From: Granulosicoccus antarcticus IMCC3135
GTDB lineage: Bacteria; Pseudomonadota; Gammaproteobacteria; Granulosicoccales; Granulosicoccaceae
DNA length: 64,000 nt
Assembly: GCF_002215215.1 (NCBI RefSeq)
Contig: NZ_CP018632.1
Coordinates: 5,638,501-5,702,500, forward strand
Reading direction: 5' to 3'
The position numbers were made by a program, and so were the translations under genes. A model generated the notes under the pieces. That model saw nothing but the letters and a program-made list of their open reading frames with translations. It did not search any database and was not told the DNA's origin. Positions within the stretch are counted from its first letter, which is position 1. Every line of letters starts with the position of its first letter. Positions 8,360 through 14,127 of this stretch are shown here, piece by piece.

Positions 8360-9226
8360 ATGAAAGATTCACTACCCAACAACGCAGACAGCACCTATAT
8401 CACCACCGGTGATCTGCAAGAAGCCATTGATGCCGCCCTGATTCTGGAACGCCCGCTACTGATCAAGGGTGAACCCGGCACGGGCAAAACAGAACTGGCC
8501 ATTGACGTCGCTCGCCGACTCAACGCTCCCCTGCATACCTGGCATATCAAGTCGACGACCCGCGCGCAACAGGGCTTGTATGAATACGATGCCGTGTCCC
8601 GGCTACGAGATTCGCAACTGGGAGACGCCCGAGTCGAAGATATCGGCAACTACATCGTTCGAGGCGTGTTGTGGGATGCCTTTGTCAGCGATGAGCGCTG
8701 CGTGGTACTCATTGATGAAATCGACAAGGCCGATATCGAATTTCCCAACGACTTGTTGCAAGAACTGGATCGCATGGCGTTTGAAGTCTACGAGACCCGC
8801 GAAACAATAAAAGCCCGTCAGCGACCGCTGATCATCATCACCAGCAACAACGAGAAAGAACTACCTGACGCTTTCCTGCGCCGCTGCTTCTTTCATTACA
8901 TCAGCTTCCCCGACAGGCAGACCATGCAACGCATAGTCGATTCGCATTTTCCGGACATCAAGCCCGATTTGCTGAGTGCTGCCATGGAAGTATTCTTCGA
9001 TCTGCGTGAGGTGCCCGGATTGAAGAAGAAGCCGTCCACATCCGAATTACTGGACTGGCTGAAACTGCTGATAGCGGATGATCTGCCTGCCGATGCTCTG
9101 GGAGCTGACGACATTCGTACCGTGCTACCCAAAATGCACGGAGCGCTGCTGAAGAATGAGCAGGATGTGCATCTGTTTGAACGCATCATTTTTCTGCACA
9201 AGCAGCAGCAAAACAGAAAACGCTGA
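8360..9226 (+). CDS. MoxR-family AAA+ ATPase
   Basis: A 288-residue AAA+ protein with Walker A GEPGTGKT (37-44), Walker B VVLIDEID (115-122), a sensor-1 Asn in IIITSNNEKELPDAF and an Arg finger region in LRRCFFHYISFP. MoxR proteins act with VWA-domain partners to mature or assemble protein complexes. The gene 3 bases downstream encodes exactly such a partner. The closest described relatives of this pairing are CoxD/CoxE-like genes of carbon monoxide dehydrogenase maturation, but no CODH subunits are in the window. Confidence 0.9.
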   Translation: MKDSLPNNADSTYITTGDLQEAIDAALILERPLLIKGEPGTGKTELAIDVARRLNAPLHTWHIKSTTRAQQGLYEYDAVSRLRDSQLGDARVEDIGNYIVRGVLWDAFVSDERCVVLIDEIDKADIEFPNDLLQELDRMAFEVYETRETIKARQRPLIIITSNNEKELPDAFLRRCFFHYISFPDRQTMQRIVDSHFPDIKPDLLSAAMEVFFDLREVPGLKKKPSTSELLDWLKLLIADDLPADALGADDIRTVLPKMHGALLKNEQDVHLFERIIFLHKQQQNRKR

Positions 9227-9229
9227 ATC

Positions 9230-10453
9230 ATGTTGCTTGAACTGCACGACCGGCTACGCCAGGCCGGCCTACCCGTCTCCATCGGCGAATGGTTGACCCT
9301 GATGCAAGGGCTGCAAGCCGGTGTCGGTACGATGAACATCGACCGGTTCTATTCGTTCGCGCGTCTGTGCCTGATCAAGAATGAAGCTCATTACGATCGT
9401 TTCGATCAGGTTTTCTCACAGTACTGGGCCGGCCAGGAACAACAGTTCGAGCAATTGCTGGAATCATTGAAAAGTCCCATTCCCGAAGAATGGCTGCGCC
9501 AGATGGATCGCAACAAGCTGAGCGAGGCACAACGTGCCGAAGTGGAAGCACTTGGCGGATGGGATGCCCTGATGGAAACTCTGGCAAAACGCCTGCAGGA
9601 ACAAAACGAGGAGCATCACGGCGGCAATCGCTGGATTGGTACCGGCGGCACATCCCCCTTTGGTCAGGGAGGCTACAACCCTGAAGGCATTCGCATAGGC
9701 AACGATGCACCTCGGCAGGGCCGTGCCGTCAAGGTGTGGGAACAGCGGCGTTATCAAGACCTGGATGGTGATCGCGAAATCGGCACACGTAATTTCAAGA
9801 TGGCCCTGCGAAAACTCAGACGTCTGGCACGCGATGGAGGCGCCGAACGCCTGGACCTGGACAAGACCATCCGGGCCACGGCCAACAACGCAGGATTGCT
9901 GGATATCCATATGCGTGCAGAGCGCCGCAATGCCATCAAGGTGTTGCTGCTGATCGATATCGGCGGCTCAATGGACTACCACGCGCAGCTCTCTGAAACG
10001 CTGTTCTCTGCTGCCCGATCGGAATTCAAACGCCTGGATACCTACTGGTTTCATAACTTTGTTTATGAGCGTGTCTGGCAGGACAACGCTCGCCGCCACA
10101 CAGTGCAAACCTCGACCCTCGAGCTGATTCGCACTTATGGACGTGACCACCGACTGATCATCGTTGGCGATGCCACCATGAGTCCCTACGAAATCATGGT
10201 GCCTGGTGGCAGCGTCGAGCACTGGAACGAGGAGCCGGGAGCTATCTGGCTCAAGCGTCTGCAACAGGCTTTTCCACATTGCGTCTGGCTGAATCCGGAA
10301 AACCCGGATTGGTGGCATACGACACCTTCAGTACAGATGACTCGGGAGCTCATGGGCGAACGCATGTTTCCCATGACCGTTGACGGACTGCAGGAGGCAA
10401 TCAATGCGCTGAAAACGCCCATCACGCCCCCTGCCCTCAATCTGCCAGGCTAG
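9230..10453 (+). CDS. VWA-domain CoxE-like protein
   Basis: A 407-residue protein partnered with the MoxR ATPase immediately upstream (3-base gap). The N-terminal 130 residues are helical. A Gly-rich linker follows (about 130-170, including GTGGTSPFGQGGYNPEG). The C-terminal von Willebrand A-like domain starts near 235 with KVLLLIDIGGSMDY. The metal-ion-dependent adhesion site is normally D-x-S-x-S; here it reads D243-I-G-G-S247, so the first Ser is replaced by Gly. Other segments (RTYGRDHRLIIVGDATMSPYEI and ENPDWWHTTPSVQMTRELM) fit the CoxE/YehP-like subgroup. The target complex is unknown. Confidence 0.85.
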   Translation: MLLELHDRLRQAGLPVSIGEWLTLMQGLQAGVGTMNIDRFYSFARLCLIKNEAHYDRFDQVFSQYWAGQEQQFEQLLESLKSPIPEEWLRQMDRNKLSEAQRAEVEALGGWDALMETLAKRLQEQNEEHHGGNRWIGTGGTSPFGQGGYNPEGIRIGNDAPRQGRAVKVWEQRRYQDLDGDREIGTRNFKMALRKLRRLARDGGAERLDLDKTIRATANNAGLLDIHMRAERRNAIKVLLLIDIGGSMDYHAQLSETLFSAARSEFKRLDTYWFHNFVYERVWQDNARRHTVQTSTLELIRTYGRDHRLIIVGDATMSPYEIMVPGGSVEHWNEEPGAIWLKRLQQAFPHCVWLNPENPDWWHTTPSVQMTRELMGERMFPMTVDGLQEAINALKTPITPPALNLPG

Positions 10454-10613: not shown

Positions 10614-12317
10614 ATGCGCATGATGCGATCCATCGACCTGTTGCAAGGGCCGTGCTGGCCCATGCTGTGCTGTGCGCTGCTTCTAGGCGCCTGTGAGCAC
10701 AGCCAGCAAGACAAACACAACGATCCTTTGTCAGAGCCTGCCCAGGCTTCAGCAAACCCCGATTTGACACCTGCAGCCCTCTCGCCCCTTGAGGATCTGG
10801 ACGGTGACACTCTTATCCCTCCCAAGCAGCCCGAACTACTGATCTCAGCTCAAGCCGGTGTACTGAACCTGCAATGGCAGCCCATTGACGCTCAGAACAG
10901 CGCCCGTCTGTATCTTCACGACCCTTTGAGCGGCGGGGAAACACTCGTCCATGAAATCAACGATCCGACTGTCCGGACCTGGCAATTGCCAAGTGCCACC
11001 CACCGCAGAGCCTGGCATCGACAGCAGTACCGGATTGAACTATGCACACCGGACGATTGCCTCAGCTCTCCCAGAATGCCTCTTTCGGGGCTGGCGGCTG
11101 AAACAATCAACTCTCTGTCACCCGCCGTTTTCATCAAGGGTGAACGCTATGGAGAAGATATCGCACTTAATCGCGATGCCTCGCTAGCGGTACTGACACT
11201 ACCGCTTGAGGGAAGCCTCGACATTCAGGCTCGTGTCAAAGAGCAATGGGGGAGCATACAATCAGTCTCACTCGACGCTCTGGATCTATCCGCAAGCCGT
11301 ACGCTGCAGGTGGCACTATCGGACTCGGGCGATACGGTAGCGGTATTCGTATCCGACAGCGAGAGCTCAGACTCCCAGATCCGAATTCTTGAACGCCTTG
11401 GAGAAGCGTGGCAGCAGATTGCCCAATGGTCTCTGGAGCTGCAAAACCTCGACAATATTGCACATCAGGCGCTCACTTTATCCTCAGATGGTGAGCAGCT
11501 TCTGCTACATCACGACAACACTTTGGCGATTTTTCGTCAATCAGATATGGGCTGGTCTGCGGTTGCACACACTATCGCAACTAACAATGCCGACGAGCCA
11601 CCCTCTTCCGGGTCCGGGTCCGGACCAGAACGGTTGATGGCCAGCACGGCAAACACGGATATGTCGCGTGTATTCACCGTCACCGAACATAATCAGTTGC
11701 TTTATCTCAACATCTGGACGATGTCCTGGAATATCACGGATTGGATACGCAGCGCTCGTTTCCAACTGCAGAACCTTGATTCAGATTCACAGCTTGCCAT
11801 TATCAGCAATACCAACGGCTCGACTGTGAGCATTGCCGGCTGGGAAGATAGCGCATTGTCCAGCCCTTCCCTTGTCATGTGGCGATACGCTGTCGACTCC
11901 ACAGCTGTGGAAGGCTCAGCTGATCCCGCATTCGATCTCAGAGCGACTGACTCTTTGCGTGCGCCACTACGTGTACCACTGCATTCGCCACCTGCCAATC
12001 ATTCCAATTCCAGACTGATATTTGCAGCTGATGCTGCTCTTGGTATCGTTGCATTGGGATGGCATGCAGTGGACGACTCGGATTCAAGCACCGGCATTAC
12101 AGCCGATGCGGCGCTGAGTACCTATCTTTTCAACCCCCAGAGCAGACAGTGGCTATCGGCACTGGAGCTGCCAGAAAACCTGCCAACGCTTGCCAAACAA
12201 TCCTTCGCCACAGCACTTGCTCTATCGGCTGATGGCAGCACCATGATGATGGCTAGCAAAGCTGGCACAACCGACCCGAACCGAAGCCGCGCTGGCGAAG
12301 TTCTGATCATGCGTTAA
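10614..12317 (+). CDS. Lipoprotein with FG-GAP-like beta-propeller repeats
   Basis: A 567-residue protein beginning with a signal peptide and lipobox LLGAC (Cys at about residue 27), so it is a predicted lipoprotein. Residues 55-150 look like a fibronectin-type strand-rich domain (LLISAQAGVLNLQWQPI). From about 170 the chain contains repeated blades with 'ALS-x-DGE' style turns (LALSADGSTMMMASKAG, LTLSSDGEQLLLHHDN, VALSDSGDTVAVFVSD). The last repeat ends in DPNRSRAGEVLIMR, the typical end of an FG-GAP/integrin-alpha-like propeller unit. Function is unknown; cell-surface binding is the usual guess for such folds. Starts at codons 1, 3 and 4 are all possible. Confidence 0.65.
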   Translation: MRMMRSIDLLQGPCWPMLCCALLLGACEHSQQDKHNDPLSEPAQASANPDLTPAALSPLEDLDGDTLIPPKQPELLISAQAGVLNLQWQPIDAQNSARLYLHDPLSGGETLVHEINDPTVRTWQLPSATHRRAWHRQQYRIELCTPDDCLSSPRMPLSGLAAETINSLSPAVFIKGERYGEDIALNRDASLAVLTLPLEGSLDIQARVKEQWGSIQSVSLDALDLSASRTLQVALSDSGDTVAVFVSDSESSDSQIRILERLGEAWQQIAQWSLELQNLDNIAHQALTLSSDGEQLLLHHDNTLAIFRQSDMGWSAVAHTIATNNADEPPSSGSGSGPERLMASTANTDMSRVFTVTEHNQLLYLNIWTMSWNITDWIRSARFQLQNLDSDSQLAIISNTNGSTVSIAGWEDSALSSPSLVMWRYAVDSTAVEGSADPAFDLRATDSLRAPLRVPLHSPPANHSNSRLIFAADAALGIVALGWHAVDDSDSSTGITADAALSTYLFNPQSRQWLSALELPENLPTLAKQSFATALALSADGSTMMMASKAGTTDPNRSRAGEVLIMR

Positions 12318-12399: not shown

Positions 12400-12424
12400 C
12401 CTGCCACTGCAGGCCCTTTATTTT
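12400..12424 (+). terminator. Possible weak terminator after the lipoprotein gene
   Basis: CCTGC-CACT-GCAGG (12400-12413) is followed by CCCTTTATTTT. The stem is only 5 bp, so this is a weak candidate. It lies between convergent genes, and the downstream minus-strand gene ends within the same stretch. Confidence 0.3.
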
Positions 12425-14127
12425 GTAGGATATGCGTTCAGCATGCGTCGCAGATCCATCAACAGAATCTGATCAGGCCCCTTGGAACTGACCAGCTCAA
12501 CCCCTTTGAATACATGTTTGAGCAGAGTTTCCATCGAGTGCCCCTTTTTGTCGACCAGGCTCAACAAACTACCCGAACAGGTCAAGCCAAGAGTCTTGTC
12601 TTCGTGCTCTAGCTCTATGCACAGCTGCATGATTTTTCGTACCAGCAGATACACCTGCGTCTCTTCACGGTGGCGCAACAAAAATCCGAAACGGTTCCCA
12701 GTCAGCTTGGCAACATGTGCAGGGCGTTTGTGAATTCCCTGTAGCAACGCCTCCACTCTGGCAAACAGCGCCGGGTACTCATTCGCCTTGTGAATCTGAC
12801 CCGAGACGTCCTGTACGAAGACGTCCATCACCATCAGGCTGACTCTGTCATCCAGATTTCCGGCATTGCTCAGGTACCACTGCATCTGCCTGATAAAAGG
12901 CTTGCTGGAAGGCTCCAGCATCAGTGGATTATTCAACGACTCGGTACCGGGTGCCTGACTGTTACCCACCTTTTTCTCAGCCTTGCCAGCACTGCTTGCG
13001 ATAGGAATCTGTGCCCGGGCAAAACGCAGCAAACTACGTCCGGCTGGCTGAGTGAGAATATGCTGGTAATCAATGCTGATCGTTTTGCCACCAGGCAAAC
13101 GCCAATTGGCTGAATGCTGCTCTTCACCGGCACTCTGAGGCCCACCAGTCTCCAGTAGCGCTTCGCACTGTTGCCCTATCAGCAACTTGCGATTGTCCAG
13201 ATACAATTCTTGCAAACCTGCATCGTTGACATAACTGATGCGATGATCAGAATCTATCACTAGCACAGCACCGGCCATGGTCTCCAGGGCCTCTTCCAGC
13301 AAAGCACACTCAGCTTGTAATCCGCGACGCTGACGTACAAAGCGACTGATGGCATCGATTCGGCTCAGAAGCAGCTCACTGGACTCGTTCTTGAACATAC
13401 ATTCCACGGCACCTGCCCGCAGGCTTCGTTTGATGATGTGGTCGCTATAGGTTCCCGTTAGTACCGTGCAGATGATATCGCCGACAGCCTCGCTGGTCAC
13501 CAACTCGCGACACAACAGGTCTCCCGTCGTTTCAGTCAGATAGAAATCCAGAATGGCAATATCGACAGGCTCGGCAGTCGCTTGCTGTATGGCTTCCACC
13601 TGTGTCGCGGCCAGACTGACACGATAGCCCTGCAATTGAAAAAGATCACGCAGTGAGTAACGGATAGTGGCTGAATCGTCCACGATCAATAGATGAATGT
13701 CACTGTTGTCGACCCTGCCGGGAAACGCAACCGTATCGTCGGCGTCAATTTCGATCAAACGTTGCAACAGAGCTTCGAGCCTCTGATATTCTTTCCAGGG
13801 CAGCACTGCGGTGTGCTCGCGCTCTGCCACCCAGGCACGTGTTTCAGCCCGCATATCGGTTGACATGACAACCACTGGCAGCTCTTTGTAAGCAGACTGC
13901 TCCAGCAAGCTGGCCAGCTCATCTGCCTCAATTTGAGGTGCAGTGGGCCAACCAAACAACAAACCGGTGTATTCGGTTCCGAACTGCTGGTATTGCTTGT
14001 CTAATGCCTCAACAGCGCCCTTGTAGCTCTCTGTTGCATCCACGACAAATCCCAGCGACTGCGCGTGCTTGTCAAGTACGTAGCGCATGGTGGCAGAAGG
14101 CTCTACCAGTAATAGTCGATTCGTCAT
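12418..14127 (-). CDS. REC-REC-PAS-degenerate GGDEF signalling protein
   Basis: A 569-residue cytoplasmic protein. Residues 1-122 resemble a receiver domain, but the expected phosphoacceptor position (GLLFGWPTAP, about 55-64) has no Asp. Residues 143-262 are a complete second receiver with DD at 150-151, D194 in AILDFYLTET and a Lys at about 246. A PAS-like domain covers about 282-375 (AGAVLVIDSDHRISYVNDAG). The C-terminal 420-560 region aligns with a diguanylate cyclase fold, yet the signature Gly-Gly-Asp-Glu-Phe is TGNRF (476-480, in LTGNRFGFLL). It should therefore not make cyclic di-GMP and may act as a binding or scaffold module. No kinase is adjacent. Domain boundaries are by eye. Confidence 0.82.
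   Translation of the reverse strand: MTNRLLLVEPSATMRYVLDKHAQSLGFVVDATESYKGAVEALDKQYQQFGTEYTGLLFGWPTAPQIEADELASLLEQSAYKELPVVVMSTDMRAETRAWVAEREHTAVLPWKEYQRLEALLQRLIEIDADDTVAFPGRVDNSDIHLLIVDDSATIRYSLRDLFQLQGYRVSLAATQVEAIQQATAEPVDIAILDFYLTETTGDLLCRELVTSEAVGDIICTVLTGTYSDHIIKRSLRAGAVECMFKNESSELLLSRIDAISRFVRQRRGLQAECALLEEALETMAGAVLVIDSDHRISYVNDAGLQELYLDNRKLLIGQQCEALLETGGPQSAGEEQHSANWRLPGGKTISIDYQHILTQPAGRSLLRFARAQIPIASSAGKAEKKVGNSQAPGTESLNNPLMLEPSSKPFIRQMQWYLSNAGNLDDRVSLMVMDVFVQDVSGQIHKANEYPALFARVEALLQGIHKRPAHVAKLTGNRFGFLLRHREETQVYLLVRKIMQLCIELEHEDKTLGLTCSGSLLSLVDKKGHSMETLLKHVFKGVELVSSKGPDQILLMDLRRMLNAYPTK

Follow-up and report, generated by a model that had tools for sequence, protein, structure and literature searches.

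What a response regulator can do once its cyclic di-GMP (c-di-GMP)-synthesizing domain has lost the residues of an enzyme is the question raised by a gene of Granulosicoccus antarcticus IMCC3135. The gene lies in the window, namely, the whole 64,000-nucleotide stretch of DNA analyzed (NZ_CP018632.1, positions 5,638,501 to 5,702,500), which belongs to a genome comprising a single contig of 7.78 Mb. It occupies positions 12418..14127 of the minus strand, ATG start and stop codon included, as judged from the open reading frame and from orthologues, and encodes a 569-residue protein of the order REC1-REC2-PAS-GGDEF*, where REC denotes a receiver and GGDEF* a degenerate GGDEF domain. The first-pass annotation of this DNA had placed the gene correctly.

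REC1 (residues 1-128; 13744..14127, minus strand) was delineated from the sequence, the predicted beta-alpha pattern and structure matches spanning this region. REC2 (residues 144-265; 13333..13698, minus strand), assigned by Pfam and alignment, contains the phosphoacceptor D194 and the motif AGAVECMFKNE at residues 238-248. A long helix found in the predicted structure (residues 250-283; 13279..13380, minus strand) links REC2 to a PAS-like domain at about residues 275-372 (13012..13305, minus strand), the latter recognized from sub-cut-off Pfam scores and the fold pattern of the model. GGDEF* spans residues 412-569 (12421..12894, minus strand). When the protein was scanned with Pfam, a single Response_reg domain was reported (residues 147-257; E 2.5e-17). 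No Pfam match was obtained for REC1, while PAS_4 scored 21.1 bits against a cut-off of 23.1, Pfam PAS likewise fell below its cut-off, and GGDEF scored 12.3 bits, under the curated cut-off of 23.8. Ten orthologues were also scanned, six of which bear an EAL domain; in five of these six, Response_reg, a PAS family, GGDEF and EAL all scored above cut-off, and in the sixth (L065, cut by a contig end), Pfam EAL was slightly under. Pfam PAS passed its cut-off in the EAL-less orthologues L051 and L113. A second receiver was reported by Pfam in none of the ten, such that REC1 went unrecognized in all 11 proteins scanned. Searches against NCBIfam yielded no equivalog at cut-off among the matches listed (best 25 of 74); in the same search with the REC-REC-PAS-GGDEF-EAL proteins (E 1e-40), again no equivalog was at cut-off among the matches listed, with the GGDEF domain model alone passing.

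An AlphaFold model of the whole protein, based on 58 aligned sequences (mean pLDDT 87.3), consists of two receiver-like units, the helix at residues 250-283, a PAS-like unit and a GGDEF-like unit; given a pTM of 0.44, the relative placement of the domains is unreliable. Two structures of tandem receivers, 3mf4 and 3luf, could be aligned to model residues 2-266 and 2-267, respectively (Z 18.8), at an rmsd of 9.3-9.4, and therefore match as separate domains rather than as one rigid body. The domain arrangement is not due to chance, since 24 named orthologues align with the protein over its whole length at 33-69% identity, those at 55-69% identity being from Granulosicoccus.

To place the protein within its family, 109 orthologues were compared, 60 with and 49 without an EAL domain (96 rows plus 14 added, minus L072, which is cut by a contig end); as these were mainly retrieved with the window protein as the query, their proportions are no census. 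Rows corresponding to other receivers of the same genome (L002-L010), to presumed copies of equal lengths and identities (L011-L029, L116, L126-L128) and to proteins sharing their first 40 residues with L051 and L052 (L129, L130) were dropped, and L065 and L099 were retained despite being cut by contig ends. Outside the branch of the window protein, its relatives are REC-REC-PAS-GGDEF-EAL proteins of Gammaproteobacteria of about 850 residues. These share with the window protein the domain order, the REC2 motif and, mostly, the Gly-Trp-Pro of REC1, and are 26-38% identical to it in the best-matching segment, which mostly covers about residues 4-325. The window protein differs from them in having no EAL domain, no active GGDEF site and no canonical I-site, and in presenting a weak PAS domain and new conserved residues. 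An EAL profile was derived from the long relatives, six of which were checked with Pfam EAL (all but the contig-end-cut L065 passing); searched with it in six frames, neither the window protein nor the 6 kb downstream of its gene contained an EAL domain. Among the EAL-bearing rows, the E-x-L motif is present in 58/59 and DDFGxG in 57/59, such that, by these motifs, the domain looks workable.

Separate encoding of the missing domain was also considered. Across up to 6 kb downstream (less at contig ends) of 37 loci, L072 included, an EAL domain was encountered only at L051 and L052, where the next gene encodes a separate GGDEF-EAL protein. At L052:9861-13448, this is a 1195-residue protein encoded on the same strand after the EAL-less gene and containing PAS-like repeats, with the same arrangement being seen in L051; its GGDEF and EAL motifs are, by eye, apparently intact, making it a possible enzyme partner. 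A second, enzyme-bearing copy in the window genome was likewise discounted, as the other nine matches are confined to the REC2 region, and no plasmid copy of the gene was matched at E 1e-15.

Because Pfam GGDEF scores below cut-off, assignment of the C-terminal domain relies on profile comparison and predicted structure. Comparison with the GGDEF domains of the EAL-bearing relatives gave a probability of 97.7 and an E of 1.7e-12, and the profile matches include GGDEF proteins of known structure. As the fold search with the whole model was dominated by REC2, the C-terminal domain was folded alone (25 sequences; pLDDT 91, pTM 0.87). All 50 matches listed by Foldseek for this model, the best at E 1.2e-6, are to diguanylate cyclases or other GGDEF-domain proteins, DosP, ImcA and SiaD included. 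With VIA-align, DgcZ ranked first (Z 16.8, 150 residues aligned, rmsd 2.7), and the GGDEF domain of FimX (3hva), degenerate and catalytically dead as in the window protein, was also matched (Z 13.9, 148 aligned, rmsd 3.6). The first-pass annotation had named structure prediction as the analysis that could overturn its GGDEF call; what came out was a GGDEF-like fold.

Within this fold, the residues of an active diguanylate cyclase have been replaced. The signature reads TGNRF (residues 476-480), as earlier reported, and F437, G443, P452, S547 and P551 stand at other canonical positions; D435, the first Asp of DxDxF, persists, as in 22/36 EAL-less rows. Whereas the GGDEF motif is intact in 56/60 EAL-bearing orthologues, this is so in 0/49 of those without EAL (L134 having no aligned residue there). 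The enzyme sites were compared residue by residue in 36 EAL-less and 59 EAL-bearing rows at the metal, guanine and phosphate positions. The second Asp of DxDxF was found in 3/36 as opposed to 59/59 rows, the guanine Asn in 2/36 as opposed to 57/59, the guanine Asp in 3/36 as opposed to 59/59, the Lys of AKxxGRN in 3/36 as opposed to 59/59, and the Glu of GGDEF in 0/36 (Arg in 30) as opposed to 56/59. Across all 49 EAL-less members, Arg replaces this Glu in 33. Remnants persist in the EAL-less rows, both of the signature (first Gly in 19/36, Phe in 16/36 with Tyr in 15) and of AKxxGRN (Gly in 28/36, Asn in 24/36). Overall, the EAL-bearing proteins conserve the metal, guanine and phosphate positions examined, most of which the EAL-less proteins have lost. 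Three EAL-bearing proteins that group together in the tree, L089, L108 and L120, also have a broken GGDEF motif (EGDRY, EGDRL and SADKF, respectively), and two of them share the Glu-to-Arg change with the EAL-less branch.

Tandem receivers followed by a GGDEF fold are also found in the diguanylate cyclase PleD (REC-REC-GGDEF), in which the first receiver takes the phosphate and the GGDEF domain is active. PleD chains were the first Foldseek matches of the whole model, albeit with low TM-scores (0.23-0.31), since the placement of the domains differs. The window protein, by contrast, presents G59 rather than Asp in REC1, with the second receiver being the intact one, an intervening PAS domain and a dead GGDEF domain reading TGNRF. 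Dead GGDEF domains are already known as receptors or interaction partners (PMC10333796 and PMC8779298), with several well-studied examples being c-di-GMP receptors by virtue of the I-site, while FimX binds c-di-GMP through a degenerate EAL domain (PMC10333796), a domain that the window protein does not have. A degenerate GGDEF motif is in itself no proof of inactivity: in CbrR of Campylobacter jejuni, the two sites read KGRD and SAEKI, yet GTP and c-di-GMP are still bound, and low c-di-GMP production was seen with this protein in E. coli (PMC8779298).

The window protein could be a receptor of the PopA or CbrR type, with a dead GGDEF domain whose I-site has retained c-di-GMP binding and thereby serves to recruit a partner. 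PopA, a REC-REC-GGDEF c-di-GMP receptor, follows the same general plan of two receivers and a dead GGDEF domain with non-enzymatic output (PMC10333796), and CbrR likewise joins a response-regulator input of two receivers to a variant GGDEF domain (PMC8779298). The messenger, moreover, is very probably present, given that the window genome contains 51 GGDEF and 40 EAL matches, with the window gene not among the former. Yet PopA retains RxxD, whereas the window protein reads KRPA at residues 467-470; CbrR has the RxxD-like KGRD, and its c-di-GMP binding is lost once the I-site is replaced (PMC8779298). In the 36 EAL-less rows, the Arg of RxxD is found in ten, the Asp in seven and both in only three, rendering such a receptor unlikely. 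The window protein further differs in having a PAS domain, absent from the PopA plan and nowhere mentioned for CbrR in the portion of PMC8779298 consulted, where phosphorylation sites are predicted in both CbrR receivers (D53 and D174).

Turning to the input side, the first-pass annotation had described REC1 as lacking the phosphoacceptor Asp and REC2 as intact, and both descriptions stand. In REC1, G59-W60-P61 occupies the Asp site; in REC2, the acidic pair D150/D151, D194, T224 and K246, that is, the full residue set of a response regulator, are all present. The window protein also contains both family hallmarks, Gly-Trp-Pro in REC1 and AGAVECMFKNE in REC2, the latter being exact in 80/109 orthologues; a degenerate DNA pattern for GAVECMFKNE occurs in the window only once, at 13385-13413. 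At the position of D194, Asp is found in 105/109 orthologues (60/60 with EAL and 45/49 without, Glu being present in the remaining four), Lys246 is kept in 109/109, and the acidic pair reads DD in 59/60 EAL-bearing and 40/49 EAL-less proteins. Given the Glu in 4/49 and the altered acidic pair in 9/49, REC2 phosphorylation may not be universal. The four proteins with Glu (L125, L136, L137 and L141) belong to g4, a genus group of divergent orthologues (L122, L125, L135-L143) within f1, the family of the window genome; by these substitutions, ordinary phosphorylation may have been lost in this group.

A dead REC1 is a family-wide trait, seen also in relatives with intact GGDEF and EAL motifs. The Asp position is Gly in 103/109 orthologues, with or without EAL alike (58 Gly, one Glu and one Val in the 60 EAL-bearing proteins; 45 Gly, two Asp, one Ser and one Val in the 49 EAL-less proteins). 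As it is common to both branches, the inactive REC1 probably predates the loss of enzyme activity. Residues E9, S11, T13, R103 and W111 are at least 97% identical across 95 rows. In the core EAL-less rows, Arg93, Arg97 and Lys112 (window numbering) were gained, position 112 being Glu or Asp in 44/60 EAL-bearing rows, which suggests a new basic face on the EAL-less REC1. It could be proposed that REC1 is a ligand sensor, similar to the c-di-GMP-binding pseudo-receivers of Caulobacter Cle and ShkA, with GGDEF* being only a dimerization or docking piece. That REC1 is conserved in both branches while mostly without Asp, that R93, R97 and K112 were gained, and that pseudo-receivers binding c-di-GMP exist (PMC10333796) speak for this proposal. 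Against it, the EAL-less proteins L131 and L132 of family f57, with a dead GGDEF reading GKGLF, present IIDWP in REC1, thus placing Asp at the phosphoacceptor site, as befits an ordinary receiver origin; a sensory role for REC1 is considered improbable.

The relation between the two forms was addressed by phylogeny. In a tree of 95 rows (36 EAL-less), all EAL-less rows fell on one side of a branch with an SH-aLRT support of 99. The same was true, with a support of 100, in a tree of another 95 rows that included 37 of the 49 EAL-less proteins and was calculated without 14 rows, mostly long branches (L123-L125, L134-L144); the first tree, containing L123-L125, gave the same split. Both trees considered residues 1-270, were obtained by a quick method and were rooted at the midpoint, and so give no direction. 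Loss of EAL and of activity is instead inferred because regain of all active-site residues is unlikely. The EAL-less branch spans at least four family-level groups (f1, f52, f57 and f157), with L134 of f61 being a doubtful member. In family f1, a match at E 1e-20 was obtained in 43/48 genomes, the open frames being 547-743 residues long and the matched regions free of stops. When 274 gammaproteobacterial genomes were sampled evenly, the family turned up at E 1e-20 in 33: eight in the EAL-less form, one doubtful (G241) and 24 with open frames of 841-1320 residues (EAL being checked in four). The claim that this domain order without EAL is uncommon hence holds only in part, as it accounts for eight of the 33 carriers.

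Whether the EAL-less protein is decaying was considered by comparing constraint on its domains. Mean REC2 identity is near-equal within the EAL-less and EAL-bearing groups (0.588 and 0.593), while that of REC1 is higher in the former (0.475 vs 0.341) and those of GGDEF (0.325 vs 0.536) and PAS (0.259 vs 0.496) are lower. At matched REC2 identity (0.6-0.7 bin), GGDEF identity is 0.31 in the EAL-less as compared to 0.55 in the EAL-bearing group; PAS and GGDEF* of the EAL-less branch evolve faster than in the EAL-bearing relatives. This would be expected of a remnant drifting toward loss after its EAL domain had gone. However, the gene persists with open frames in the f1 genomes, and purifying selection is evident, dN/dS being well below 1 wherever dS is measurable: 0.03-0.13 for REC1 in 16 close pairs, and 0.03-0.12 for GGDEF* in 6/16 pairs, dS being saturated in the other ten and the values rough. 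Moreover, when 35 core EAL-less rows were compared with the 60 EAL-bearing rows, leaving aside 14 divergent EAL-less rows (L122, L123, L125, L133-L143), 32 positions proved to be newly conserved (a single residue shared by 85% or more of the former and by under 30% of the latter), namely, 11 in REC1, nine in REC2, nine in GGDEF* and three elsewhere, with one, Met1, reflecting start choice. Conversely, 65 positions were lost (at least 90% vs under 30%): 32 in GGDEF*, 18 in PAS, ten in the linker, four in REC2 and one in REC1. Common descent may account for part of these gains, although the two groups scarcely differ in mean REC2 identity. Given the low dN/dS where measurable and the 32 positions gained against 65 lost, the EAL-less protein is not simply decaying, and a remnant is very improbable. 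The input module is at least as tightly conserved, and the output has been rebuilt. Nor, despite the Arg at the GGDEF Glu position in 33/49 members, the H486, R497, K498 and D558 of GGDEF* newly conserved in the core rows, and a report of a highly degenerate GGDEF domain with ATPase activity (PMC10333796), is a residual or unusual enzyme turning over another nucleotide in an altered pocket any more probable, since most metal and guanine positions are unconserved among the EAL-less members.

The reading that we favor, with somewhat better than even confidence on the basis of sequence and models, is that of a response regulator that signals without c-di-GMP synthesis and in which phosphorylation of REC2 controls a docking output. 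The first-pass annotation had proposed a REC2-controlled protein-protein output; the receiver residues and a GGDEF fold that has lost its metal, guanine, phosphate and I-site residues agree with this, whereas REC2 phosphorylation and docking are themselves conjectural. As the fold is stripped beyond the signature, a protein-protein output is the best reading. In such a scheme, a histidine kinase encoded elsewhere would phosphorylate REC2 at D194, with REC1, having no phosphoacceptor, presumably providing REC2 with a fixed partner for interaction or dimerization. The signal may then travel through the predicted helix at residues 250-283 and the predicted PAS-like fold to the GGDEF fold. There, GGDEF*, which by its sequence lacks the substrate and metal residues of a cyclase, would offer its newly conserved residues as a docking site for a partner protein. 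In evolutionary terms, a branch of REC-REC-PAS-GGDEF-EAL proteins would have lost EAL and dismantled the GGDEF site, all the while keeping the input module and gaining new constraint.

In the open-licence PMC literature, no paper treating Granulosicoccus and c-di-GMP together was found, nor was a description of the REC-REC-PAS-GGDEF order, although this is no proof of absence. What is new here is the family-wide dead REC1, an EAL-less branch with a dismantled GGDEF domain, and new constraint in place of plain decay. A natural series is formed by relatives whose enzyme motifs are intact and a branch that has shed EAL, the active site and, for the most part, the I-site but has come under new constraint. 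The EAL-less branch hence offers a testable case of a second-messenger enzyme turned protein-docking regulator with its phosphorylation module kept, and comparison of the family singles out D194, R479, R497/K498 and D558 for mutation.

Candidate partners were sought in the gene neighborhood. No kinase was found among six neighboring proteins scanned with Pfam. Downstream of the signaling gene, on the opposite strand, lie genes for an AAA ATPase (8360-9226, plus strand; Pfam AAA), which we take to be MoxR-like, and a VWA_CoxE protein (9230-10453, plus strand; Pfam), together possible functional neighbors. The pair is found near the EAL-less gene in f1 (g4 excepted), f52 (L133) and f157 (L051, L052). 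Eight genomes of the 274-genome sample contain both the family gene and a VWA gene. In five of the six such EAL-less genomes, the VWA gene shares a contig with the signaling gene at a distance of up to about 6 kb; in the sixth (G031), it is on another contig, that of the signaling gene being only 5.7 kb. In the two long-frame genomes with both (G049, in which EAL was checked, and G290), the VWA gene is not on the contig of the signaling gene. The EAL-less f57 genomes G103 and G239 returned no VWA match at E 1e-30, and in ten g4 genomes with both genes, these are on different contigs. As the pair is convergent with the signaling gene, there is no operon. Since the pair stays within about 6 kb in f1, f52 and f157, where the remaining neighborhood differs, it may be ventured, as a long shot, that the EAL-less branch as a whole was turned from c-di-GMP enzymes into a non-enzymatic, phosphorylation-controlled docking protein partnered by the adjoining AAA (MoxR-like)/VWA (CoxE-like) pair. 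The genes gshA-mobA-moeA were rejected as partners, as they lie ahead of the gene in most sufficiently flanked f1 loci yet are absent at f52, f57 and f157 loci; being limited to f1, this looks like inherited order.

Of the remaining surroundings, a scan for promoters gave two promoter-like sites as opposed to 1.9 expected, and terminator-like sites numbered five as opposed to 2.0 expected. Outside the signaling gene, the divergent neighbor encodes a cytochrome P450 (14301..15542, plus strand) from a cluster with members in 27 loci. The convergent neighbor (10614-12317, plus strand) encodes a 567-residue protein that, by eye, starts with a lipobox-like sequence (LLGAC) and that Pfam leaves unmatched at E 1e-4; ten loci, that of the window among them, contain members of its cluster.
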